DNA of 64,000 bases from Salinibacter altiplanensis. GTDB lineage: Bacteria > Bacteroidota > Rhodothermia > Rhodothermales > Salinibacteraceae. Below the pieces are notes generated by a model, which ran no database searches, had not been told where the DNA came from, and was given only the letters and a program-made list of their open reading frames with translations. This document shows positions 17,661 to 30,988 of the stretch, one piece after another. A program made the position numbers and the translations under genes. The stretch lies in contig NZ_NCQY01000030.1 in NCBI RefSeq assembly GCF_002894645.1, positions 557,968 to 621,967 on the forward strand, in the 5' to 3' direction. Numbering within the stretch: position 1 is the stretch's first letter; every line of letters begins with the position of its first letter.

Positions 17661-18238
17661 GGTAACTCCGCACACGCGGAGATAGACCTCCCTGCACTCG
17701 CTCCCAGTCCTCGCTGCTTTCGGTAACTCCGCACACGCGGAGATAGACCGAGATTATGGACACAAACCAGTCCGTTGACCAAGGTAACTCCGCACACGCG
17801 GAGATAGACCCCGTTCCAGATGAAGCCCTCGAAAGCCCGAGATGGTAACTCCGCACACGCGGAGATAGACCCAACACACACACACGGGAGGCAACCCCCC
17901 ATGAGGTAACTCCGCACACGCGGAGATAGACCTCGACTGGCAAAGCCTCGGCAACGCCTCGGGGCGGTAACTCCGCACACGCGGAGATAGACCCCCTTTC
18001 CGTCGGCGACCTTCCGCGCGGCTTTTGGGTAACTCCGCACACGCGGAGATAGACCTTAAGGATCTTATCGAGCAGTCCGGAAAGAAACGGTAACTCCGCA
18101 CACGCGGAGATAGACCCGCGAGGGTAAAGGAGGCTGGCCCGGTCTCTCCGGTAACTCCGCACACGCGGAGATAGACCCTCAAGGCCAGTGGCGCCACGCT
18201 ACGCGGGTTCGGTAACTCCGCACACGCGGAGATCGATC
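17661..18238 (+). CRISPR. CRISPR array 1, type I-E, 10 repeats
   Basis: Ten 28-base repeats start at 17661, 17722, 17783, 17844, 17905, 17966, 18028, 18089, 18150 and 18211. The repeat opens GGTAACTCCGC, has the loop ACAC, closes the 6-bp stem with GCGGAG and ends ATAGACC. Spacers are 33 bases, except the sixth, which is 34. The last repeat loses its final bases (GATCGATC instead of GATAGACC), which with the AT-rich leader on the left sets the polarity as left to right. Repeat length, stem and neighbouring genes all fit subtype I-E. Confidence 0.97.
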
Positions 18239-18321: not shown

Positions 18322-18852
18322 ATGAGCCAGTGGACGGACCGTCCCCTCCGCACAGCGTCGCTGGTCTTCTTCGACCTGGAGACGACCGCCCTGCGCCCGG
18401 ACCGCGGCGGGCGCATCTGCGAGATGGCCGTGGTGGACCCGCAGGGCGTCCGGTTCGACTGGTGCAGCGACGAGGCCCCGCCCCGCGACGACGTCGTAGC
18501 AGCGCAGCTGCCCCGTCTCCTCAATCACCTCGAAGTGGGCATCGTCGTGGGGCACAACCTGGAGTTCGATTTCCGCTTCCTCACCTACGAGGCCGAGCGC
18601 CTCGGCTGTGGCGGCCTCGATCTCCGCTTCGCCGACACACTGGGGTTGGCCCGGGCGCTCCTCAACGCCCCGGACGACTACCAGCTCGGAACCCTGCTCG
18701 GCCATTTCGACGCGGCCCCGGACGAGGAGCTGCACACGGCGGTGGGGGATGCCCTGGCCACCCGTGCCCTGTTCTGGAGACTGGTCGAGACGGGGGGGCT
18801 GGAGACGCCCACAGACGCCAACGTGCGGCGGCTGCAGTGGGGCGCGGGGTAG
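18322..18852 (+). CDS. DnaQ-like DEDDh 3'-5' exonuclease
   Basis: A 176-residue stand-alone exonuclease. The catalytic acids are visible as VFFDLETT (Asp18, Glu20), GHNLEFDFRFL and HTAVGDALAT, matching the Exo I, II and III motifs of the DEDDh family. It starts about 90 bases after the last repeat of array 1 and reads the same way. DnaQ-type exonucleases are known to trim prespacers and are fused to Cas2 in some type I-E systems, so a role in spacer acquisition is plausible here. A proofreading or general repair exonuclease is the alternative. Confidence 0.8.
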   Translation: MSQWTDRPLRTASLVFFDLETTALRPDRGGRICEMAVVDPQGVRFDWCSDEAPPRDDVVAAQLPRLLNHLEVGIVVGHNLEFDFRFLTYEAERLGCGGLDLRFADTLGLARALLNAPDDYQLGTLLGHFDAAPDEELHTAVGDALATRALFWRLVETGGLETPTDANVRRLQWGAG

Positions 18853-19551: not shown

Positions 19552-22278
19552 ATGGACGGTTCTCCCGCCCCCGACCAGTTCTGGGCCAAGCTCAAGTACA
19601 AGAACGACGACCGCTCGACCGGGAAAATTGTCGAGTGGCATCCCCTTCTCGCCCACTCGGCGGACGTGGCGGCGGTAACGGAGGCGCTCTTGCAGCGGAC
19701 GATCCTGCGCGATCGGCTCGCGGCGCTGATCGGGTGGGACGAACTGTCCGACGTGCACGTGGCGCGGTTGTCGGCCCTGGCGGCGTTGCACGACGCGGGG
19801 AAGGTGAACCATGGGTTCCAGAATCGAGGACACTCGACACGACCGCAGGCTGGACACGTGCGGCCGATCGTTGACGTTCTGAGCACTCCGTCACTACAGG
19901 AGAAGCTCCTTCTTCCACTCGGATTGGGAGAAATGATGAGCTGGTTTGACGGCCGGAAGGATCCGGATCATTTTCTTCGGGCCACCTGGGCTCATCACGG
20001 CGAACCAGTGGACAGCACACGCGATCAGGATACCTCTCTCTGGGAGCCGGACTCCAGAAATCCACTCGACGAGCTCAAACGTCTTGGAGAGCACGTTCGG
20101 AGTTGGTTCCCAGACGCCTTCCGCGAGGGCACGCCGTTCCCGGAAGGCCAATCTGACTTCCAGCACGCCTTCAACGGCGTCCTCACGCTCGCGGATTGGA
20201 TTGGATCGGGCTTTCCCTATGCCGATGATCGAGAGCAGAATTTTTTGAAACGTGCTCAAGAGATCGCCGAGGAGCGACTGACAAAGCAGGCGATGTTGGC
20301 CAAGTCGTACCAGGAATCGCTGGAGACATCCGTCGGTTTTTCAGGCATTCTCAAGAAGGAAGAGTGGACACCGCATCCGGTTCAAGAGATTGGGCTCTCA
20401 CATCCGGTGTACGAAAAGGGCGGGCTCACCGTGCTGGAGTCCGACACAGGCTCTGGGAAGACCGAAGCCGCTATCGCCCGGTTCTTTCGCCTGTACCAGG
20501 AGAAAACGGTCGATGGGATGTACTTCGCCGTCCCCACCCGAACGGCCGCCAAACAGCTCTACATGCGTGTGTACGAGACCGTCCAGCGGGTGTACGAGCG
20601 GCAGGACGCCGATCCGCCGCCCGTCGTTCAGGCGGTGCCAAGCTATTACAAAATCGACGGCGTCGAAGGAACGCCCGTTGCTCCGTTCACGGTGCGTTGG
20701 CACGACGAGGAAGAAGAAGACGAAGCCCGCGAACGACGATGGGCAGCCGAGGGACCCAAGCGGTATCTGGCAGGGGCCATCGTCGTTGGGACCATCGATC
20801 AGGTTCTGTTGTCGGCCCTGCAGGTTCGTCATGCCCACATGCGGGGCGCTGCGCTCCTGCGCCACTTCCTGGTCGTCGACGAAGTTCACGCCTCCGACGT
20901 GTACATGACACGCCTCCTTTCGGCGGTGCTCGACCATCACCTGGCTGCAGGTGGGCATGCGATGTTGATGTCGGCGACGCTCGGTACGGAGTCCCGCCTC
21001 CGATTGACGAAAAAAACCGTCCGGGACGACGACATTCCGCCCCCCGACGAGGCCACCCAAATCGGGTATCCGCTCGTCACGCATGTCAGCGCCGAACGGG
21101 ACGACCCGACACCGAAAGTCACAGAACCATCCGGCTACCGGAAAGATGTGTTGATGACGGCCGAGCGCAGGGCCGACGACCCCGAAGCAATTGCCCGCCG
21201 TGCCATCGACGCAGCACGAGAGGGAGCGCGCGTGCTCATCATTCGCAACTTGGTAGAGGATTGCCGGCGCGTTCAGGAGGCAATCGAGAATCAGTTGGGG
21301 GCGGAGGCGTCGGATCTGCTTCTTTCGATTGGGGACACACCGGCGCCCCATCACTCGCGCTACGCCGACGGCGATCGAAAACGGCTCGATGCGGCCATCG
21401 AGCAGGCATTTGGAGAGGAAGACGATGATGGAAATCCGATCCCAATTCAAGGCGCCATTGCCGTCGCCACGCAAACGGTGCAAATGTCCCTCGACATCTC
21501 GGCCTCGCTGATGATGACGGATCTCTGTCCCGTGGACGTGCTCCTGCAACGGATCGGACGCCTGCACCGACACGACCGCTCGCATCCATCTGGATTCGAA
21601 GACCCCGAATGCATTGTCTTGACTCCGGAGGAGCGCAATCTGAGTTCGGCCATCGTTCGGGGAGGCGAAAAGGACGGTCAGGGACTCAAAGGCGGTCACG
21701 GGCTGGGGACAGTGTATTCGGATCTCCGGGTGCTCGATGCGACGTGGACTCTCCTGGAAGATGAGGACCTGGAGACGTGGACGATTCCGGACGACAACCG
21801 GCGCCTGGTTGAGCGAGGGACGCACCCGCACGTCCTTCGCGATCTCGTGACGGAAAAAATGAAGAACGAGCCGGACGATGTCGCTGAGGCCTGGGACCAG
21901 CATCAGAACTGGGTGGTGGGCGAACGAACCGCCGACGCCGTGAGCGCGAAGCACGTCTTGCTCCAGCGCCACAAATCGTTCGGCCATCAGCAATTCGGGG
22001 AAGACCTGGAGAAGGTAAAGACGCGGCTTGGTCAGGACAACGTGCGCGTGGAATTTTCGGAACCAATGCCGAGCCCCCTCCCCCCCAACGAGGGACCGTC
22101 CATTTCTGCCCTCTCGATTCCCGAACACCTGCTCCGAGATCGCGGGGAGGAGACCGTTTCTCTCGAAGACCTGGAGGCCGACGACGTGCAGGAGACTGAT
22201 GAAGGGTTTTGCTTCATAGCTAACGAGAAGCGATTTCGATACGTTCATCTGGGGCTCTCGCGGATCGAGGGGAAGTAA
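19552..22278 (+). CDS. cas3: CRISPR-associated helicase-nuclease Cas3
   Basis: The 908-residue effector nuclease of the type I-E system, recruited by Cascade to unwind and shred target DNA. An N-terminal HD nuclease domain shows LLAHSADVA, ALHDAGKVNHGF (about residues 78-89) and WAHHGEPV (about 146). The helicase part has Walker A SDTGSGKTEAA (about 297), the box VVDEVHASD (about 440), MLMSATLGT, and motif VI QRIGRLHRHDR. Length is typical for a fused HD-helicase Cas3. It precedes the Cascade genes but is separated from them by a 273-base intergenic region and an extra gene, so it may be transcribed on its own. Confidence 0.96.
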   Translation: MDGSPAPDQFWAKLKYKNDDRSTGKIVEWHPLLAHSADVAAVTEALLQRTILRDRLAALIGWDELSDVHVARLSALAALHDAGKVNHGFQNRGHSTRPQAGHVRPIVDVLSTPSLQEKLLLPLGLGEMMSWFDGRKDPDHFLRATWAHHGEPVDSTRDQDTSLWEPDSRNPLDELKRLGEHVRSWFPDAFREGTPFPEGQSDFQHAFNGVLTLADWIGSGFPYADDREQNFLKRAQEIAEERLTKQAMLAKSYQESLETSVGFSGILKKEEWTPHPVQEIGLSHPVYEKGGLTVLESDTGSGKTEAAIARFFRLYQEKTVDGMYFAVPTRTAAKQLYMRVYETVQRVYERQDADPPPVVQAVPSYYKIDGVEGTPVAPFTVRWHDEEEEDEARERRWAAEGPKRYLAGAIVVGTIDQVLLSALQVRHAHMRGAALLRHFLVVDEVHASDVYMTRLLSAVLDHHLAAGGHAMLMSATLGTESRLRLTKKTVRDDDIPPPDEATQIGYPLVTHVSAERDDPTPKVTEPSGYRKDVLMTAERRADDPEAIARRAIDAAREGARVLIIRNLVEDCRRVQEAIENQLGAEASDLLLSIGDTPAPHHSRYADGDRKRLDAAIEQAFGEEDDDGNPIPIQGAIAVATQTVQMSLDISASLMMTDLCPVDVLLQRIGRLHRHDRSHPSGFEDPECIVLTPEERNLSSAIVRGGEKDGQGLKGGHGLGTVYSDLRVLDATWTLLEDEDLETWTIPDDNRRLVERGTHPHVLRDLVTEKMKNEPDDVAEAWDQHQNWVVGERTADAVSAKHVLLQRHKSFGHQQFGEDLEKVKTRLGQDNVRVEFSEPMPSPLPPNEGPSISALSIPEHLLRDRGEETVSLEDLEADDVQETDEGFCFIANEKRFRYVHLGLSRIEGK

Positions 22279-22299: not shown

Positions 22300-22320
22300 T
22301 CTAGACTTACATCTACCCAA
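22300..22320 (-). promoter_or_regulatory. Predicted target site of the pseudo-crRNA
   Basis: Read on the - strand, this 21-base site agrees with the pseudo-spacer at 22382-22402 at 15 of 21 positions: 1-6, 8, 9, 12, 13, 15 and 18-21. The three bases on its PAM side (22321-22323) read AAA. It lies immediately upstream of the TTGCAA box at 22322 that probably forms the -35 element of the pseudo-array promoter, so Cascade bound here would block transcription. The match is counted directly from the sequence; the function is inferred. Confidence 0.5.
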
Positions 22321-22321
22321 T

Positions 22322-22351
22322 TTGCAATTATTCGGGCAGAGTCATTTATTA
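22322..22351 (+). promoter_or_regulatory. Candidate promoter of the pseudo-CRISPR RNA and cas8e operon
   Basis: TTGCAA at 22322-22327 and TTATTA at 22346-22351, 18 bases apart, lie in the most AT-rich part of the intergenic region. Start of transcription would fall at about the first base of the first pseudo-repeat (22354). The block AATTTGCAATTATTC recurs almost exactly in the leader of CRISPR array 1, which supports a shared promoter element. Confidence 0.5.
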
Positions 22352-22353
22352 GA

Positions 22354-22430
22354 ACTGTCGCCGAGTAATCGGCGATGGACCTTGGGTTGAAATAGGGTTA
22401 GAAGTGACTCCGCGTCAGTGGAGACTTTCA
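22354..22430 (+). ncRNA. Degenerate two-repeat mini-CRISPR, CreR/CreA-like guide RNA
   Basis: Two pseudo-repeats (22354-22381 and 22403-22430) flank a 21-base pseudo-spacer. Each agrees with the 28-base repeat of array 1 at 16 of 28 positions. The first keeps the 6-bp stem and 4-base loop through two compensatory changes (T-A to G-C and C-G to A-T) and retains the crRNA handle as GATGGACC. The second keeps the 5' arm CTCCGC exactly and the 3' arm as GTGGAG, but has lost the handle. This is the known shape of Cas-regulating pseudo-crRNAs, which Cas6 processes and Cascade uses for repression rather than cleavage. Transcription has not been shown. Confidence 0.6.
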
Positions 22431-22442
22431 TAAAGAAAGCCC

Positions 22443-22495
22443 CGCTGACCGCGAGATCAGCGAGGCCAAACCACCGAGTTGCAGCTCGGAGGCCT
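22443..22495 (+). other. Two consecutive hairpins after the pseudo-array
   Basis: CGCTGA (22443-22448) pairs with TCAGCG (22457-22462). Just after it, AGGCC (22463-22467) pairs with GGCCT (22491-22495) around an inner stem CCGAG/CTCGG (22474-22478 and 22485-22489). No T-tract follows, so they look like a structured 5' leader of the downstream gene rather than a terminator. They may also be further decayed repeats, since both 3' arms are followed by AGGCC. Confidence 0.35.
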
Positions 22496-22551
22496 TGCTG
22501 GTACGTCCTCTATTCGCTAGAACGTTGAACATACAGCATTCAATTGTAGCT

Positions 22552-22995
22552 ATGATTACGCAAACTGACAAGATCCTCGGGGCCGTCTTACGGCGATCTA
22601 TACGAGATGGTGTTATCGAGGAGGTATCTGAAGCCGACGACCATCCGGGACACTTTATCGTCGACGAGGAAAAGCATGTCCTGGTGAAGCACGCTCAGAG
22701 TTCAAGCTCAACTTGGCGATTTACCTTCTCCCCGAAGGTCGTTGAGACGCTCGTCTCATTACAAAACGCGGTCGGTCTTTTCGGGGCAACATATCTCTGG
22801 CTGGTGTGCGACAACGACGCCGTCTGCGAACTCGGAGTCGATGAATGGGGCTCTCTTCTCAACATGGAGGCTCCAACGTCCCAACAGACGATCCAGATTT
22901 CGCGTCCTCCTGGTCATTCATTCTCCGTAGCAGGGACCGATGGAATGCTTCCGCACAGCGTTCCAGTCAGCCGCTTCCCTTCCCTGGACACGTAG
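22552..22995 (+). CDS. Unknown protein encoded between cas3 and cas8e
   Basis: A 147-residue protein that I do not recognise. The N-terminal half is charged (KILGAVLRRSIRDGVIEEV, then an acidic, His-containing segment). The middle has a strongly strand-like block, GATYLWLVCDNDAVCELGV, followed by DEWGSLLN. No transmembrane segment or known nuclease motif is evident. The ATG at 22552 was preferred to an upstream in-frame CTG/TTG region because it starts the coherent sequence. It lies 37 bases before cas8e in the same direction, and so is probably the first gene of the Cascade operon. A regulator or accessory factor of the CRISPR system is possible. Confidence 0.65.
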   Translation: MITQTDKILGAVLRRSIRDGVIEEVSEADDHPGHFIVDEEKHVLVKHAQSSSSTWRFTFSPKVVETLVSLQNAVGLFGATYLWLVCDNDAVCELGVDEWGSLLNMEAPTSQQTIQISRPPGHSFSVAGTDGMLPHSVPVSRFPSLDT

Positions 22996-23032
22996 TGTAT
23001 TTTTCGCTCTCGCTCATCTCACATAAGTGTTC

Positions 23033-24562
23033 ATGTCTGATCTGTCTTTGTTGAACGATGAGCTGTTTCGAGTGCAGACTCGCGACCACATGGCGCAGAT
23101 GACCCTTCCTGCGATTCTGCGTGCTCTCAGTCGGGACGTCATTCTTAGCTTCAATGCCCTCCAGCCCCATCAGGAGCAGGCCTGGTACTCGTTTCTGGTG
23201 CAGTTGGCCGCGATGACTGTGGTCCGTGCGAACGACGGGACCACTCCAGACACCGCCGAGGAATGGCGCGGCGCCCTGCTCAGCCTGACCGACGGCAACG
23301 AGAATGCGTGGCGTCTCGTCGTTCCGGATGTGGAAAAAGAGCCTGCGTTCCTCCAGCCCCCAGTGCCGGAGGGATCCCTTGATGACGCCAACTTCAAAAG
23401 CGACATCCCGTCGCCGTCCAATCTCGACGTACTGGTGACGTCGAAGAACCACGACGTAAAACAGCGGCGCATTTCATACCCGGAGCCGGCGCACTGGATC
23501 TACGCCCTCGTCACGCTGCAGACGATGGAGGGCTACATGGGCCGTGGGAATTATGGAATTGTGAGAATCAATTCCGGCTACGGTTCGAGGCCATTTCTAG
23601 GCTTATCTCCAGAGCTTTCGTTTGGGGCTCGCTTCTGCCGCGATCTGGACGTTCTCATTAACCAGCACGATGACCTCACTACGCTCTACGATGTCGAGGA
23701 CGGGCACACGCTGATCTGGACGGTGCCGTGGAATGGTGAAAAGTCGAGCGCACTCCCGCTCCGCAAGTGCGACCCGTATTTCATTGAGGCCTGTCGTCGA
23801 ATCCGATTCATAGAAGAAGGAGGAGACATCGTCTGCTGGCGTGCCACCTCGAAAGGCCAGCGCATTGATGCCCCCTCCTCGCTCAACGGGCGCACGGAAG
23901 ATCCCTGGACCCCGATCGACTCCGAGGGGGAAAAATCGCTGACCCTCAGCGGAGAGGGGTTCACCTACGAAAAGCTACAGGAAATTGTCTTCGGGAAATA
24001 CGTCCGACCGGCCTCCCTGGAGAGACAAAACGGGGATGACGGTGCGATGTATCTGACTGCCCGGGCAATGGTGCGCGGTCAGGGAAAAACAGAAGGACTT
24101 CACCATCGCATCATCCCCATTCCAGAAAAGGTGTATGGCTTGTTTCCGGACAAAGAGGCGATGGATGAGCTTGCCGACCGGGCGAAGCAGCGCGTGAAAT
24201 TGGTCTCGAAGGTTGAGTCCAACGTGCTTCGTCCCGCCGTAGCCGCTCTTCTCAGCGCCGGAAAAGACGAGGACGTGGACTGGGAGCAGGTCCAGCCCTG
24301 GATCGATGCCTTCGACGACGCGGTGGACGATCACTTCTTCGACTACCTGTGGGCGTCGGTTGAAGCCGAGGACGAAGCGGAGGCCGAGGACAAATGGGAA
24401 GCATTCCTCCGAGACGAGGCGGAACAGCAGTTCGACGAGGCCCAGGACAGCGTTCCCCTCCCCGACATCCGCCGCTGGGAAGCACTCAGCGCCGCCCGGT
24501 CCGTCTTCCACTCCCGCATCGACGACGTTTTGGGATCAACTGCCAACGCCCCCGCTGCTTGA
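23033..24562 (+). CDS. cas8e: Cascade large subunit Cas8e (Cse1/CasA)
   Basis: Large subunit of the type I-E Cascade complex, which reads the PAM and recruits Cas3. The 509-residue protein shows the family pattern: an N-terminal L-x-x-A-L-S-R-D segment, RANDGTTPDTAEEWR, the core YPEPAHWIYALVTLQTMEGY followed by GRGNYGIVRINSGYGSRPF, and a helical acidic C-terminal domain of about 150 residues. The ATG at 23033 is preferred to a GTG two codons earlier. It is followed after 22 bases by cse2. Confidence 0.93.
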   Translation: MSDLSLLNDELFRVQTRDHMAQMTLPAILRALSRDVILSFNALQPHQEQAWYSFLVQLAAMTVVRANDGTTPDTAEEWRGALLSLTDGNENAWRLVVPDVEKEPAFLQPPVPEGSLDDANFKSDIPSPSNLDVLVTSKNHDVKQRRISYPEPAHWIYALVTLQTMEGYMGRGNYGIVRINSGYGSRPFLGLSPELSFGARFCRDLDVLINQHDDLTTLYDVEDGHTLIWTVPWNGEKSSALPLRKCDPYFIEACRRIRFIEEGGDIVCWRATSKGQRIDAPSSLNGRTEDPWTPIDSEGEKSLTLSGEGFTYEKLQEIVFGKYVRPASLERQNGDDGAMYLTARAMVRGQGKTEGLHHRIIPIPEKVYGLFPDKEAMDELADRAKQRVKLVSKVESNVLRPAVAALLSAGKDEDVDWEQVQPWIDAFDDAVDDHFFDYLWASVEAEDEAEAEDKWEAFLRDEAEQQFDEAQDSVPLPDIRRWEALSAARSVFHSRIDDVLGSTANAPAA

Positions 24563-24584: not shown

Positions 24585-25211
24585 ATGAATGACCAACCCG
24601 CATTCGATCGTTCCGGATCGCCCCCCGACGATTCGCAAGATTCTTCCGAGCCACCTCCCTCCGAACGGATTGCAATCACCGACGACGTGGCGGACGACGA
24701 TCGTCCGAAGCAATTTGCCAGTTCCATCGGCAAGATCGCGAAGATGATGGCGACGGAGGGGGCCCTCGGCACGGGCACGCTTGCCGAGCTTCGGCGCATT
24801 TCCCCCGAAAAACCGTTCACCCCCGCCCTCTGGAATTTGCTGCTGGACCTCGACGAGGCAGAGCCCTGGGGCGGACTGGATCGCGACGTGTACGAGCGGC
24901 GCATGGCCACGCTGGCGATGGGAATGGCCATTTGTGCCGGCCTCCACAACTACCGGGAGCCGCTCGGACGGGCTCTCGCCGAAGCAGGCTGGTCGAAGCT
25001 CCGGTTCGTGCGCCTTATGGAGGCCCGCGGCGAAACGCTTGTGAAGCACGTCCGCCGCATGGCACAGTACCTCGCCAGCAAATCGCAGGCGGCCAACTGG
25101 GTGGATGTAGGGTGGCTCCTCATCGGCCAGGATTGGACCACCGCGGAAGAAACCCGCCTGCGCATCTCTCGCAGCTACTACGGCACCCTGCACGCGCAGG
25201 AGCAGGAGTAG
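24585..25211 (+). CDS. cse2: Cascade small subunit Cse2 (CasB)
   Basis: Small helical subunit that lines the belly of the type I-E Cascade and stabilises the R-loop. The 208-residue protein is nearly all helical, with the family segments TGTLAELRRISPEKPF, PALWNLLLDL and the C-terminal RLRISRSYYG. The first 30 residues are acidic, Pro/Ser-rich and likely disordered, longer than in most relatives. It lies between cas8e and cas7e in the canonical order. Confidence 0.9.
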   Translation: MNDQPAFDRSGSPPDDSQDSSEPPPSERIAITDDVADDDRPKQFASSIGKIAKMMATEGALGTGTLAELRRISPEKPFTPALWNLLLDLDEAEPWGGLDRDVYERRMATLAMGMAICAGLHNYREPLGRALAEAGWSKLRFVRLMEARGETLVKHVRRMAQYLASKSQAANWVDVGWLLIGQDWTTAEETRLRISRSYYGTLHAQEQE

Positions 25212-25266
25212 TCCCCTCTCGGATACACGTGCGTTTGAGTCTCATCCATTCACCCTCCAGCTGACC

Positions 25267-26550
25267 ATGTTTTTGCAATTTCACACCCTCACCTCTTATC
25301 CCGGAACGCTTCTGAATCGCGACGATGCCGGGTTTGCGAAGCGATTGCCCTTTGGCGGGGCTACCCGGACACGCGTCTCGTCGCAGTGCCTCAAGTACCA
25401 TTGGCGCAACTTCGACGGCGAGCACGCACTCTACGGCATCGACGACGTGGAGGAATCGCTCCGCTCGCGGGAAACCTTTCGCCGCAGAGTTGCCCAACCG
25501 CTGGTGAACGACGGACATCCAGCGCCGCTTGTCCGTGCCGCAACGGTGTCCCTGAAAGAGCTAATCGTGTCCGGTGGCACCGCGAACAAGACGACCGTCA
25601 AAGACGCCATCACGGCGGAGTCAGACGATGAAATCAGCGATGTACTGGACACCAATCAGGTCACCATCTTCGGTGCCCCGGAGATGCAGTACCTGCGATC
25701 GCTCGCGGGGGAGGTCATCGAGAGCGTCAGGAATGACTTTCCGGTCTTCTGGGAGAGCGATGGCGTGCCTGACAGTGACGCCGTCGGCGACGTGGCCGAT
25801 GCGATTCGAAAGTCCGACCTGATCAAGAGTCGCAAGGTCAAGAAGAACCTGAAGGGGCTGGATCTAGCGTCCGGCCTCGATGCTGCCCTCTTCGGTCGCA
25901 TGGCCACGAGCGACGTGCTGGCCCGGGGCGATGCTGCCATTCACGTGGCTCACGCCTTTACGACGCACAAGGAGGAAAGCGAGAGCGACTACTTTTCTGC
26001 TGTCGACGAGTTGCGCCGGGATCAGCCCGAGGAAAGTGGCGAAATGGGCGCCGGGCACATTAACAGCCAGGAACTTACGAGCGGGCTCTTCTACAGCTAC
26101 GTCGTGATCGACGTGCCCCTCCTCGTCTCGAACCTCGAAGGATGCGAGCGAGACGACTGGTCCGACGCCGACCGGACGCTGGCCTCGGACGTCGTGCACC
26201 GCTTCGTCCACCTCATGACGCGCGTTTCCCCGGGGGCGAAGCTGGGATCGACGGCGCCGTACGCCTACGCCCAGTGCCTGATCGCAGAAGCGGGCACAGC
26301 CCAGCCCCGCACAATGGCCAATGCCTTCCAGGAGCCTGTTTCGAAGGAGGGCGACGTGCTCAAAAACAGCTACGACGCCCTCGCATCGTACGTTGACGAC
26401 CTCAACGGCATGTACGGACGCACCACAGAGGCAAAGCTTTCCGCAACGAACGATTCGAGTGCCCTGCAAGACACACTTGGCCTCGATGACACGACGCCAG
26501 TGCCCAAGATTGCCGAGTGGGCCGCCGATACGGTCACCGAAGCTGGATGA
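25267..26550 (+). CDS. cas7e: Cascade backbone subunit Cas7e (Cse4/CasC)
   Basis: Forms the six-copy backbone that coats the crRNA spacer. The 427-residue sequence opens with FLQFHTLTSYPGTLLNRDDAGFAKRLPFGG then TRTRVSSQCLKYHWR, the signature of this family. GHINSQELTSGLFYSYVVID and the SPGAKLGSTAPYAYA segment mark the later half. It is somewhat longer than the E. coli protein because of acidic insertions (for example SDDEISDVLDTNQV and SDYFSAVDELRRDQPEE), which fits a halophile. It is followed after 48 bases by cas5e. Confidence 0.95.
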   Translation: MFLQFHTLTSYPGTLLNRDDAGFAKRLPFGGATRTRVSSQCLKYHWRNFDGEHALYGIDDVEESLRSRETFRRRVAQPLVNDGHPAPLVRAATVSLKELIVSGGTANKTTVKDAITAESDDEISDVLDTNQVTIFGAPEMQYLRSLAGEVIESVRNDFPVFWESDGVPDSDAVGDVADAIRKSDLIKSRKVKKNLKGLDLASGLDAALFGRMATSDVLARGDAAIHVAHAFTTHKEESESDYFSAVDELRRDQPEESGEMGAGHINSQELTSGLFYSYVVIDVPLLVSNLEGCERDDWSDADRTLASDVVHRFVHLMTRVSPGAKLGSTAPYAYAQCLIAEAGTAQPRTMANAFQEPVSKEGDVLKNSYDALASYVDDLNGMYGRTTEAKLSATNDSSALQDTLGLDDTTPVPKIAEWAADTVTEAG

Positions 26551-26598
26551 CCCCGATTCCTTGATTGCACGTGCCCCACAACGAATGAGAAGCCCGAA

Positions 26599-27363
26599 AT
26601 GAACATTCTTCTTTTGCGCTTTGACGCGCCGCTAATGAGTTTCGGGGCCCCGATCGTAGACAATCGGGGAGAGATTCAGCCCTACCCGGCCCTGTCCATG
26701 ATGACGGGCCTCTTGGGGAACGCCCTCGGCTTCGATCACGCCGAGACGGAGGCCCTCGAACGGCTCCAGCACCGCCTTCTGTATGCCGTCCGTCAGGACC
26801 GGGCGGGCGAGCAGATTCAAGACTATCAGACCGTCGACTTGTCGAAGCCCTACATGGACGATGCCCGGGCCTGGACCACACGGGGCGAGCTCGAAACACG
26901 CAAAGGGGGCTCCGCCAGCAGCGGCACGCACATTCGCCAGCGCGACTACTGGGCCGACGCCGCATACACGGTCGCACTCACACTCAACCCTGCTGGACAA
27001 ACCCCCACACTCGACGACATCGCGGGAGCAGTTCGGAAGCCCGAGCGGCCTCTTTTTATCGGTCGAAAACCATGTCTTCCGGCTTCCTTCCTCTTTCTAA
27101 AGCAGACGGAAGCGCCTCGCCTCGTCGATGCCCTGTCGAATTTGGACAAAGCACCGCTTGCCCCAGAGCCCGACGACCGTTCATCACTCCGGGCCTGGTG
27201 GCCAATTCATCCGGACGACGATAAGCCGGCCGAATCGGACCCGATCCAGGAAAATATGCGCAAGCCCGTCACTGACCAGCGCGATTGGGAAAATCAAATC
27301 CACGCTGGGCAACGCTGGATTGCATATGGTCCTCTTTCCATCTCTGAATCCTCAACCTCATGA
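26599..27363 (+). CDS. cas5e: Cascade subunit Cas5e (CasD)
   Basis: Caps the 5' handle of the crRNA in Cascade. The 254-residue protein starts MNILLLRFDAPLMSFG and contains the family motif PYPALSMMTGLLGNALGF. It also has the conserved QDYQTVDLSKPY segment and the strand RQRDYWADAAYTVALTL, and ends near GRKPCLPASFLFL with a C-terminal extension. Its stop overlaps the start of cas6e by four bases (ATGA), showing translational coupling. Confidence 0.94.
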   Translation: MNILLLRFDAPLMSFGAPIVDNRGEIQPYPALSMMTGLLGNALGFDHAETEALERLQHRLLYAVRQDRAGEQIQDYQTVDLSKPYMDDARAWTTRGELETRKGGSASSGTHIRQRDYWADAAYTVALTLNPAGQTPTLDDIAGAVRKPERPLFIGRKPCLPASFLFLKQTEAPRLVDALSNLDKAPLAPEPDDRSSLRAWWPIHPDDDKPAESDPIQENMRKPVTDQRDWENQIHAGQRWIAYGPLSISESSTS

Positions 27364-28172
27364 TTGACACCCAGACCGACACCTTCCACATGGTCCAGCT
27401 CTACCTGGACCCCCGCCGCCTCGTCCAGCTGGGGAAGATGCAGGGCCTGCCCCTTGCCCGCACGGACACGAATTACTTGGTGCACTGTGCATTGGGCGAG
27501 CTCTTCGGCGACGATGCCCCCAAGCCCTTTTTTGTTGACGACGATCCACGCACCGTGGAAGAAACGGCTGAATACCACGACGATCGTCACGTCCGTGTGC
27601 TCGGCTACGCCGACGCGGACGACGACATGCTGCAGCAGGAGGCGAAGCTCAGCCCGAATCCCACGATCGGCAATCTGTACGATAAGGACCGTCTTGATTC
27701 CCACGAAATGCTGTCGTCGTTTCGGAAGGGACGCCGCCTTCAGTTCGAACTCCGCGCCTGCCCGGTCATCCGCAAGGCCTCCGCGGGCGAGGGCGTGAAC
27801 CAGAACGGCGAGACGCGCACCTGGGACGAGGGCGACGAGCTCGACGCCTTCCTCGCGAAGGCCTGGTCGCAGCCGGAGAAGGACTTGAACCGCGAGAAGG
27901 TATATCGCAAATGGCTGAGTGATCAGTTCGATCACCGGGGCGGAGCAACGTCCGATCCTGACCAGATTGCCATGACCCGCTTCTCCATCGAGCGCATGAC
28001 GCGCCGCACGCACGGGGCCGACCGCTCGGTCGAGACCATCAAGCGCCCCGACGTGACCCTCACCGGCACGCTCCAGGTCACCGACTCGGACGCCTTCGTC
28101 AACCTCCTCCGCTCCGGCCTCGGGCGGCACAAGAGCTTCGGGTACGGGATGCTGAAGGTGCGCCGCGCCTGA
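27360..28172 (+). CDS. cas6e: crRNA endoribonuclease Cas6e (Cse3/CasE)
   Basis: Cleaves the precursor crRNA at the base of the repeat hairpin and stays bound to the 3' stem. The 270-residue protein has a ferredoxin-like start (HMVQLYLDPRRLVQL), a candidate catalytic histidine in YLVHCALGELFG, and the C-terminal glycine-rich loop SGLGRHKSFGYGMLKVR typical of the family. It must accept at least the two repeat types of the two arrays, which differ in stem sequence but not in shape, and possibly the pseudo-repeats upstream. Confidence 0.94.
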   Translation: MIDTQTDTFHMVQLYLDPRRLVQLGKMQGLPLARTDTNYLVHCALGELFGDDAPKPFFVDDDPRTVEETAEYHDDRHVRVLGYADADDDMLQQEAKLSPNPTIGNLYDKDRLDSHEMLSSFRKGRRLQFELRACPVIRKASAGEGVNQNGETRTWDEGDELDAFLAKAWSQPEKDLNREKVYRKWLSDQFDHRGGATSDPDQIAMTRFSIERMTRRTHGADRSVETIKRPDVTLTGTLQVTDSDAFVNLLRSGLGRHKSFGYGMLKVRRA

Positions 28173-28518: not shown

Positions 28519-29412
28519 ATGCCGCTGAAAGGACGCCTCGGCCTCGAAACCGCCCGCGTGCCCCACGCCGACCGCCACGGGCTGATGTGGCTGGAGCGGG
28601 GCCGCCTCGCCGTGGAAGACGGCAACCTCGTCTTTACCACCGCCGGGTTCGACGACCTGGAGGCCGGCGCGTACGACATTCCCTACCAGCAGGTCTCCAA
28701 CATCCTGCTCGGCCCCGGCGGGGTGGTGAGCCACGATGCCCTCCGCATCCTCGCCCGCCGCGACACGGGCCTGCTCGCCGTCGGCTCCAAGGGCGTGCGG
28801 CTCTACGCCACGAGCATGCCCTTCGGCCCCGACAGTGCCGACCGCGCCCGCCGTCACGCCACGCTGTGGGCCGACGAGGAGACGCGGGTGGACGTCGCCC
28901 GCACGATGTACCGCATTCGTCTTGGGGGCGAGCTGCCGCCGCACCAGCGCGATCTCAACTCACTTCGCGGCATTGAGGGGCAGCGGGTCAAGAAGGTGTA
29001 CCGGAACCTCGCCGACCAGCACGGGGTGGCGTGGAACGGGCGCCGCTACGACCGCAACGACCCGGACGCCAACGACACCGTCAACCACGCCATCAACCAC
29101 GCCGTGACGGCCGTCTACGCCGCGGCCCGCATCGCCGTGGCCATCACCGGGACCGTGCCCGAACTCGGCTTCATCCACGAGTCCTCGGGCCACGCCTTCG
29201 CGCTGGACATTGCCGACCTCTTCCGAAGTTCTACGACGCTCCCCATCGCGTTCCGGGCCGCGAAGAAGGTACAGCGCCAGCCGGGGCGCGACATTGAGCC
29301 GACCGCCCGCAAGATGGCCGGCTCCACGCTCCGGGACGAGGATGTCATTCCCGACATGATCGACCAAATCAAAGAGGTTCTCGATGTCGATGACGATCGC
29401 CGTGACGCGTAA
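28519..29412 (+). CDS. cas1: CRISPR integrase Cas1 (type I-E)
   Basis: With Cas2, integrates new spacers at the leader end of the arrays. The 297-residue protein aligns by eye with E. coli Cas1. It shares RGIEGQRVKKVYR (the metal-binding Glu), WNGRRYDRNDPDANDTVNHA, GFIHESSGHAFALDIADLF (catalytic His and Asp) and LPIAFRAAKK. The start at 28519 follows an AG-rich leader. It overlaps cas2 by 29 bases. Confidence 0.96.
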   Translation: MPLKGRLGLETARVPHADRHGLMWLERGRLAVEDGNLVFTTAGFDDLEAGAYDIPYQQVSNILLGPGGVVSHDALRILARRDTGLLAVGSKGVRLYATSMPFGPDSADRARRHATLWADEETRVDVARTMYRIRLGGELPPHQRDLNSLRGIEGQRVKKVYRNLADQHGVAWNGRRYDRNDPDANDTVNHAINHAVTAVYAAARIAVAITGTVPELGFIHESSGHAFALDIADLFRSSTTLPIAFRAAKKVQRQPGRDIEPTARKMAGSTLRDEDVIPDMIDQIKEVLDVDDDRRDA

Positions 29413-29791
29413 CACGCCGAGCCGGTTCAACGGCTTTCTCGCCTCGTGCATGCAGGAGATTGCACCGGGCGTGTACGTCGCCCCCACCATGAAGAAGTCC
29501 GTCCGCGAGCGGGTGTGGCGCGTGATGATGGACTGGAACGAGCTGCTGCCCGACGACGCGGGCGTGGTCTTCTTCTGGCGCAACCCCGACGCCCCGTCCA
29601 AGCTGAGCATTCGCCTCTTGGGCTGGCCGAAGAAGGAATTTGTGGAGCACGAGGGCCTGTGGCTCACGCACCGCGACCTGACGGAGGCGCACGACGTGGA
29701 AGAGCTGCTGGAGCAGGGCGAGGTGGAGGAGCCATCCATCGACGAGGACGACCCGACGCTGCCGATGCTGGAGGCGGTCGAGGCTCCGTGA
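29384..29791 (+). CDS. cas2: CRISPR adaptation protein Cas2 (type I-E)
   Basis: Scaffold of the Cas1-Cas2 spacer-integration complex. The 135-residue protein has the Cas2e pattern TIAVTRNTPSRFNGFLASCM, then GVYVAPTMKKSVRERVW and a C-terminal acidic tail (VEEPSIDEDDPTLPMLEAVE) longer than in E. coli. Two ATG codons, at 29384 and 29390, are possible starts, both inside the end of cas1. Array 2 begins 181 bases downstream. Confidence 0.93.
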   Translation: MSMTIAVTRNTPSRFNGFLASCMQEIAPGVYVAPTMKKSVRERVWRVMMDWNELLPDDAGVVFFWRNPDAPSKLSIRLLGWPKKEFVEHEGLWLTHRDLTEAHDVEELLEQGEVEEPSIDEDDPTLPMLEAVEAP

Positions 29792-29972
29792 CGACCCCCG
29801 ATTCGTTCCTTGACATTGCGATTCTTGAGAATGCCGCCTATGCTTGCCCCACGGCGGGCAAGGCCGTAGCACAGCGCAGTTTTGATTCCTCCTGCGACAG
29901 ACTGTCGCCTTTTTGGCGCGATACACGGAGCGAAGGGCCCGTAGCGCCCTGGTCCTGACAAACTGTAGCGGC
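29792..29972 (+). promoter_or_regulatory. Leader of CRISPR array 2
   Basis: The 181 bases between cas2 and the first repeat of array 2. It has an inverted repeat TGCGACAGACTGTCGCC near 29894, and ends with TGACAAACTGTAGCGG, which resembles the end of the array 1 leader. Because it adjoins cas1-cas2, this is probably the more active insertion site. Confidence 0.65.
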
Positions 29973-30849
29973 GGTAGCCCCGCACTCGCGGGGATAGACC
30001 TACGTGGCTAGACAATGCGCGGCGCGTCGGGGCGGTAGCCCCGCACTCGCGGGGATAGACCCGTCGCCGCGAGGCAGGCTCCGACGAGGACAGCGGTAGC
30101 CCCGCACTCGCGGGGATAGACCTGTGGGCGACACTCAGCGCCCGTGGCCCCAATCGGTAGCCCCGCACTCGCGGGGATAGACCGTGCGCCGGAAGCTCGT
30201 TGGGAGCCTGAACAACGGTAGCCCCGCACTCGCGGGGATAGACCCTCTCAGGCGCCCTCGCCGCCGCCCGTAGTGAGGGTAGCCCCGCACTCGCGGGGAT
30301 AGACCCTCCCGTGCGGTCATTTGTCCTTGCTGGACCAGGGTAGCCCCGCACTCGCGGGGATAGACCCATTGCTTACATCGCCCCTGCTACCGTATCCCCG
30401 GTAGCCCCGCACTCGCGGGGATAGACCCTGGCAGAAGAGGCCGGGGCACAGGAGGGCATCGGTAGCCCCGCACTCGCGGGGATAGACCCAGATCCTCGAC
30501 GCGCTTCATTACTGATGCCAAGGTAGCCCCGCACTCGCGGGGATAGACCCCGGCAGCGCGGGCGCGTCGCTCGTGATCCACGGGTAGCCCCGCACTCGCG
30601 GGGATAGACCCGGCGGGCGTGACTGGCTCAACGGCGGGCGTGAGGTAGCCCCGCACTCGCGGGGATAGACCGTGTGTACGTGAGGAGTCATGGGGGAGAC
30701 GTAGGGTAGCCCCGCACTCGCGGGGATAGACCTGTGGGCAAACGGAGACGTTCGTTTCTATTCCGGGTAGCCCCGCACTCGCGGGGATAGACCTTTCGAG
30801 TCAAGTCCTGAGTTGTCCCAGATAAAGGTAGCCCCGCACTCGCGGGGGT
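29973..30849 (+). CRISPR. CRISPR array 2, type I-E, 15 repeats
   Basis: Fifteen 28-base repeats at a strict 61-base period from 29973 to the last at 30827, with fourteen 33-base spacers. The repeat opens GGTAGCCCCGC, has loop ACTC, closes with GCGGGG and ends ATAGACC. Compared with array 1, the stem pair T-A is C-G, a compensatory change. The last repeat decays after GCGGGG, so the array reads from the cas2 side. No spacer looks duplicated. Confidence 0.97.
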
Positions 30850-30988
30850 ATTGATGCGAGCACGCCCATTCTCGGGGCGGGTGCGGGCACCGGCATTTCC
30901 GCCAAGTTTGCCGAGCGAGGGGGCATCGTCCGGGACGGCCGACGACGGCAGCGAGCACAGACGGTGTGTCTACGCTCCGGCGTCCGGA

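Follow-up and report, generated by a model that had tools for sequence, protein, structure and literature searches.

A predicted CRISPR-controlled module joining a degenerate mini-CRISPR, a probable antisense RNA and a 147-residue protein between cas3 and cas8e in Salinibacter altiplanensis

The window, that is the whole stretch of 64,000 nucleotides of Salinibacter altiplanensis DNA that was analysed, carries a type I-E CRISPR-Cas operon which is complete as judged by NCBIfam and Pfam profiles. Between cas3 and cas8e lies a gene for a protein of 147 amino acids, present as a single copy in its own genome. The genes and arrays of the locus are as follows.

17661-18236, plus strand: CRISPR array 1
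19552-22278, plus strand: cas3 of type I-E (PADLOC Cas3e, E 3.5e-150)
22552-22995, plus strand: 147-residue protein of the phrog_28860 family with a resolvase-like predicted fold (homologue alignment, profile, model)
23027-24562, plus strand: cas8e (cse1; profile matches including PADLOC)
24585-28172, plus strand: cse2, cas7, cas5 and cas6e (NCBIfam and Pfam)
28519-29791, plus strand: cas1 and cas2 (NCBIfam and Pfam)
29972-30852, plus strand: CRISPR array 2

The two arrays flank one cas operon, yet their repeats differ. Judged by eye, a gene for a DnaQ-like exonuclease lies upstream of cas3 at 18322-18852, and a similar one upstream of the cas3 remnant of locus L024.

A longer reading frame starting from TTG at 22495 is also contained in the program-made list of open reading frames, but the ATG at 22552 is favoured because the homologue alignments begin there. 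In six other genomes an intact homologue, 26-43% identical, is found in this position between cas3 and cas8e, and the reading frame is therefore not a chance one. At all seven intact loci (the window, L014, L015, L016, L017, L018 and L023) the gene ends 14-104 nt ahead of cas8e, which leaves little room for another promoter; with this close spacing one promoter could serve both genes.

The protein has no match in Pfam, NCBIfam or PADLOC, and its only family is one PHROG of unknown function, phrog_28860, which bears out the original prediction that it belongs to no recognised family. In Pfam the window protein gave nothing at E up to 1; eight of nine homologues gave nothing either and the ninth an unrelated hit below threshold, and nothing on the homologues exceeded the cut-off in Pfam or NCBIfam. 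The phrog_28860 profile is matched by all 17 aligned members with E no higher than 1; the window protein reaches 2.3e-15, the best member 5.4e-50 and L044 only 0.0027. Although the family equals a PHROG, a phage origin was set aside after scans of IMG/VR gave no relatives; in tblastn against phage records two queries had no matches and a third only matches at E 0.1-0.2.

The profile search and structure prediction proposed at the outset thus yielded a family of unknown function together with a predicted fold. The AlphaFold2 model, built from 16 sequences, has a pLDDT of 91.3 and a pTM of 0.87. Among known folds it comes closest to the Holliday junction resolvases of archaea, a VIA comparison with 1gef (Hjc) giving Z 9.3 and an rmsd of 3.2 over 110 residues, and the predicted core fits the PD-(D/E)XK nuclease superfamily. 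Foldseek found its best match at E 3.5e-3 with TM 0.42 (about 0.4-0.46 among its matches), none reaching E 0.001 in the PDB, and one nameless viral model at E 7.1e-4; a PDB sequence search returned only values of E 0.44 and above. While the topology is shared with Hjc and PD-(D/E)XK proteins, the D...(E/Q)xK active-site columns are not conserved in the 16 aligned sequences, and nuclease activity is therefore not claimed. Conserved polar residues occupy columns 6, 38, 98, 104 and 112 of the same alignment. Catalysis as in tRNA-splicing endonucleases, considered from the list of folds, was rejected because the residues are not recognisable.

A search of the order found the family in 12 of 114 genomes. 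In nine of these 12 the gene lies beside type I-E cas genes, seven times intact and twice as a fragment (L020, L024), so that the proposed linkage to the Cascade operon is recurrent; in the remaining three it lies elsewhere. Of these 114 genomes, 22 contain TIGR02547 (cas8e), as against seven with an intact gene, and most cas8e-bearing genomes are therefore without an intact copy. The family is rare outside the order: a phylum sample of 394 genomes contained three family-bearing genomes and the Parachitinimonas class sample (369 genomes) one further. Three new family loci came from a wider search of genome contigs, one copy lies on a Calothrix plasmid, and a Salimicrobium plasmid gave a partial match.

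At the 11 family loci away from CRISPR, searches gave no cas hits and no arrays. Several of these relatives adjoin defence genes: a Z1 helicase and a DNA methylase (L087), a Z1 and an SNF2 protein (L035), OLD-TOPRIM and Abi_2 (L037), HNH_5 (L038) and a sub-threshold nSTAND3 (L036). Judged by eye from translated reading frames, L019 lies beside an apparent integron integrase and L021 and L022 lie beside nitrate-assimilation genes; no clear defence neighbour was seen by eye at L042-L044. The original prediction had named homologues lying mostly away from CRISPR loci with a defined unrelated role as the finding that would speak against it; none of the 11 off-CRISPR relatives has a defined role.

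The original prediction placed a regulatory element upstream of the gene. This element is real and consists of a degenerate mini-CRISPR of two repeats at 22354-22430, between cas3 and the gene; that mini-CRISPR and gene form a unit had been overlooked.

22354-22381, plus strand: degenerate repeat psiR1, with a 5' handle identical in 6 of 7 positions to the ATAGACC of the array repeats
22382-22402, plus strand: 21-nt spacer-like segment (the array spacers are 12 nt longer)
22403-22430, plus strand: degenerate repeat psiR2, with the hairpin kept and the handle lost (2 of 7 positions)

The mini-CRISPR is present at all seven intact loci. Single degenerate repeats are indistinct from shuffled sequence at most loci, but the pair of repeats is distinct: leave-one-out profiles of the pair found the right place in each of the seven, scoring 20-35 bits where shuffled sequences did not exceed 17.9. 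At the 11 off-CRISPR loci no repeat pair scored higher than 16.0 bits, and a search of Rfam gave only weak matches below threshold. The handle is better kept in psiR1 (6-7 of 7 positions) than in psiR2 (2-5 of 7) at every intact locus. The distance from repeat to repeat equals that of the arrays, 61 nt, at five loci; in the window and L017 it is 49 nt, the spacer there being shortened by exactly 12 nt. Another mini-CRISPR-like repeat pair was observed at L024:16012-16100, between cas5 and cas6, with no convincing target nearby.

A predicted target of the mini-CRISPR RNA lies upstream of psiR1 and thus ahead of both mini-CRISPR and gene.

22300-22319, minus strand: predicted target (protospacer); its PAM reads AAT on the minus strand (plus-strand positions 22320-22322)
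22322-22351, plus strand: possible promoter P1, TTGCAA and TTTATT/TTATTA spaced by 17/18 nt, seen by eye; the matrix test was not significant in the window

Targets were searched on the minus strand within 150 nt upstream of psiR1, with the spacer counted from the second base after psiR1 (taken as a 29-nt repeat) and with the seed defined as positions 1-5 and 7-11. At all seven intact loci the best upstream seed match has a PAM of AAC or AAT. The number of seed matches out of ten, with the permutation p in brackets, is 8 in the window (0.094), 9 in L014 (0.008), 10 in L015 (0.0002), 10 in L016 (0.0002), 9 in L017 (0.004), 7 in L018 (0.29) and 10 in L023 (0.001). The combined permutation p for the seed matches is about 2e-10 if the loci are treated as independent, which is only partly true. 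Taken alone, the targets of the window and of L018 are weak; that of the window matches at 14 of 20 positions overall, with a p of 0.09 alone and 0.02 among sites with an AA PAM. Besides the spacer itself, the 64-kb window contains three sites that match at 14 of 20 positions and at 8 or more of the seed, and of these only 22300-22319 has an AA PAM; sites with 13 of 20 matches are found at 25098 (PAM AAC) and 28943 (PAM AAG). The PAM-proximal end of the target is 34-41 nt from psiR1 at five loci, 11 nt in L016 and 72 nt in L015.

Just two loci, L014 and L017, have a promoter upstream of psiR1 that is significant by the matrix test (p 0.01 and <1/300), and there the PAM abuts a TTGACA hexamer; at the other five loci, the window included, the test was not significant. 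As the target precedes the mini-CRISPR and this in turn the gene, we infer read-through from the targeted promoter into the gene. Two further candidates were rejected. A CreT-like RNA toxin ahead of the mini-CRISPR finds no room at six of the seven loci, where the target ends 11-41 nt from psiR1. The antisense promoter described below was considered as the one repressed by CRISPR, but within 150 nt downstream of psiR2 the best seeds reach only 6-7 of 10 and no PAM starts with AA.

Between psiR2 and the ATG lies a leader of 117-155 nt whose hairpins are more stable than those of shuffled sequences at all seven loci (z -3.5 to -5.9).

22438-22467, minus strand: hairpin 1, terminator-like, 13 pairs with a T-rich tail
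22474-22489, strand not assigned: hairpin 2 in the leader, from folding
22424-22536, minus strand: predicted antisense RNA of about 113 nt, from promoter and terminator
22543-22571, minus strand: promoter TTGTCA-17-TACAAT, overlapping the start codon of the gene

A minus-strand promoter at the start codon is found at all seven CRISPR-linked loci. Its -10 element falls at positions -10 to 0 relative to the ATG, and its two elements are 17 nt apart, or 16 nt in L023. The proportion of shuffled sequences reaching its score was 0, 0, 0.3, 1.3, 0.3, 7 and 3.7% at the seven loci, with a combined p of about 8e-9. None of the 11 off-CRISPR relatives has such a promoter at its start codon with p <0.05; a strong minus-strand promoter in L036 lies at +17..+22. 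The -35 element falls in codons where off-CRISPR members have a conserved ELYxGA-like motif, and this motif is largely lost from the CRISPR-linked members. Antisense RNAs of 85-119 nt are predicted across the loci. Their terminators are less uniform: the script found terminators at five of the seven loci, that of L016 inside psiR2, and none in L014 and L017. A T-rich tail following hairpin 1 on the minus strand was recorded by the script in the window, L015 and L023 and weakly in L018; in L014 and L016 it is visible in the sequence, though missed or misplaced by the script, and in L017 it is essentially absent. The antisense terminators are weak in L017 and L018.

Gene and mini-CRISPR are gained and lost together. 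The mini-CRISPR accompanies seven of seven intact CRISPR-linked genes and is absent from that slot at all eight comparable loci without an intact gene (L020, L069, L070, L071, L072, L081, L082 and L083), which gives a Fisher p of 1.6e-4 with the loci taken as unrelated; at L069 no cas3 adjoins cas8e. Loci L073-L080 were excluded as belonging to other I-E lineages, having no gap between cas3 and cas8e, or being cut by contig ends. In genome G038 the module occupies the very place at which cas3 and cas8e of the congeners G037, G039 and G040 are separated by a gap of only about 90-106 bp, and at L081-L083 the module is absent while a full Cascade is kept behind such a gap. At L020 the mini-CRISPR, the leader and the first half of the gene are missing together. 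L024 (G064) was left out of the count, having a broken gene fragment, a slot without mini-CRISPR and the other repeat pair between cas5 and cas6; with its gene lost and that pair in the cas operon, it complicates a simple picture of joint loss. An inverted repeat GTGACA...TGTCAC followed by T's, possibly a terminator of cas3, was seen by eye between cas3 and cas8e at L081:7275-7364 and in L082 and L083.

Between the window and L018 identity is 83% for cas3, 89% for cas8e and 96% for cas7, whereas the 147-residue protein gene shares only 34%; the module is apparently swapped or divergent against a conserved Cascade. The L018 operon is a mosaic relative to the window, with cas3, cas8e, cse2 and cas7 83-96% identical and cas5 and cas6 only about 65%, which suggests an exchange of blocks. 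Toxin-antitoxin-like genes also gather between cas3 and cas8e (families assigned by eye). A CopG and PIN pair is present at L014 5280-6150 and at L070 3930-4720, in L070 without the module, and DUF4160/DUF2442-like genes in L017 and a DUF2442-like gene in L020 lie upstream of the module slot. Extra copies of cas3 occur in L018, L070 and L072, and L070 and L072 contain a second cas3-cas8e set in tandem to the first type I-E operon.

Small crRNA-like RNAs that guide Cascade to promoters are known from several systems, which are compared here. In CreTA a psiR1-spacer-psiR2 unit has a seed at positions 1-5 and 7-11, a PAM inside the promoter, autorepression of a shared promoter and a psiR1 handle better kept than that of psiR2 (PMC8501985); the present module is alike in its psiR1-spacer-psiR2 unit, seed positions, PAM and better-kept psiR1 handle. 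The Acinetobacter creTA sits between cas3 and csy1 (PMC10097628), and here too the module adjoins cas3 on one side and a Cascade gene on the other. It departs from CreTA in that at six of the seven loci the stretch from promoter to psiR1 is too short for an RNA toxin; a protein gene follows downstream of the mini-CRISPR instead, whereas creT lies upstream of it. CrePA combines a protein toxin repressed by CRISPR, CreP, typically with a KilA-N domain, with a CreA RNA (PMC12737573). The resemblance lies in a crRNA-like RNA apparently placed so that the effector would repress a promoter next to a CRISPR-tied protein gene; unlike CreP, the module protein has no KilA-N match, a resolvase-like predicted fold and only a putative toxicity. 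Two further departures from CrePA are the position of the gene, downstream of the RNA, and the predicted antisense RNA. CreR is an autorepressor of cas genes generally uncoupled from a toxin gene (PMC12737573), and its autorepression has been reported for type I-E hosts (PMC13131331). The module shares with it a crRNA-like RNA in a type I-E setting, but this RNA was seen in this slot only together with the present gene family. The comparison literature also includes PMC9458426.

Type I toxin-antitoxin pairs combine a terminator in the leader with a strong antisense promoter directed against the beginning of the protein gene. The predicted antisense promoter and terminator-like leader hairpin of the module would be similar, while its product is a predicted alpha/beta fold of 147 residues and not a small peptide, and a CRISPR-guided lock would be added. 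In the literature searched, no publication joined Salinibacter, CRISPR and type I-E, and no type I-E CreTA system with an antisense RNA appeared among the ten of 24 matches listed; overlap with the lists of Liu 2023 and Shu 2025 is possible. We know of no earlier tie of this protein family to CRISPR. The module, real and conserved, falls within a regulatory type already described; its protein is uncharacterised and its antisense RNA probable.

From the arrangement of these parts, a guide RNA of the mini-CRISPR appears to make the cell's own Cascade switch off the promoter ahead of the gene, and this control probably serves to guard the CRISPR system. Inserted between cas3 and cas8e, a CRISPR-controlled module would include the gene as its protein component. 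Transcription from a promoter immediately ahead of psiR1 would yield an RNA that contains first the mini-CRISPR and then the gene; Cas6e would cut this transcript into a crRNA-like (CreA-like) RNA, and Cascade loaded with it would bind the promoter through PAM and seed and turn it off, while the antisense RNA from the start codon would act as a second lock. With Cascade lost or blocked by mutation or an anti-CRISPR, the promoter would fire, and the protein then made would most likely arrest or kill the cell, as reported for the CrePA toxin. The original prediction of a regulator, antitoxin-like partner or Cascade accessory pointed in the right direction with the roles reversed: the two adjoining RNAs would regulate, with the protein most likely under their control. 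We give an even chance to a Cascade-repressed protein, probably a CrePA-like effector of growth arrest or abortive infection, with an antisense lock. Slightly short of that we place the full type I-E guard with a double RNA lock, in which the mini-crRNA with Cascade would repress a resolvase-fold protein, the antisense RNA would silence leakage and loss or inhibition of Cascade would free the effector. Off-CRISPR members beside nitrate-assimilation genes or an integron integrase lack CRISPR control, which would be odd for an unconditional toxin.

The gene may also merely share a promoter with Cascade. Under autoregulation of the CreR type the promoter upstream of psiR1 would drive the gene, cas8e and all that follows up to cas2, so that Cascade would limit itself and the protein would be a co-expressed accessory without toxicity. 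The short distance to cas8e at all seven loci and the CreR reports from type I-E (PMC13131331) favour it, and we regard it as the foremost competitor, though on balance doubtful: autoregulation of cas genes alone needs no gene, yet no locus had the mini-CRISPR in the slot without one (0 of 8 comparable loci), the start codon of the gene overlaps an antisense promoter, and L081-L083 keep their full Cascade without the module.

Improbable is a role as a positive partner of Cascade or an anti-anti-CRISPR factor, for instance as a resolvase-like protein that binds DNA without catalysis and increases upon titration of Cascade. The resolvase-like fold without catalytic signature and the fast divergence of the gene against Cascade would suit such a role, but the gene is absent from many I-E loci of the same order and has relatives in other settings with no Cascade nearby. 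That a defence or mobile-element gene landed by chance beside a pre-existing crRNA-like regulator, with no functional tie, would agree with the sporadic family (integron-like site, plasmid, scattered genomes); it is very improbable, since the three parts recur in unchanged order at seven divergent loci and disappear together.

CRISPR-repressed toxins explain the upkeep of costly CRISPR systems and the answer of the cell to anti-CRISPRs, but the number described is small and their proteins have received little study. A mini-CRISPR with a PAM-seed self-match between cas3 and cas8 would offer a search rule for more modules of this kind. The recurring module described here would provide a directly testable case in type I-E: its protein family is uncharacterised, its spacer is exactly 12 nt short at two loci and its antisense promoter is conserved.
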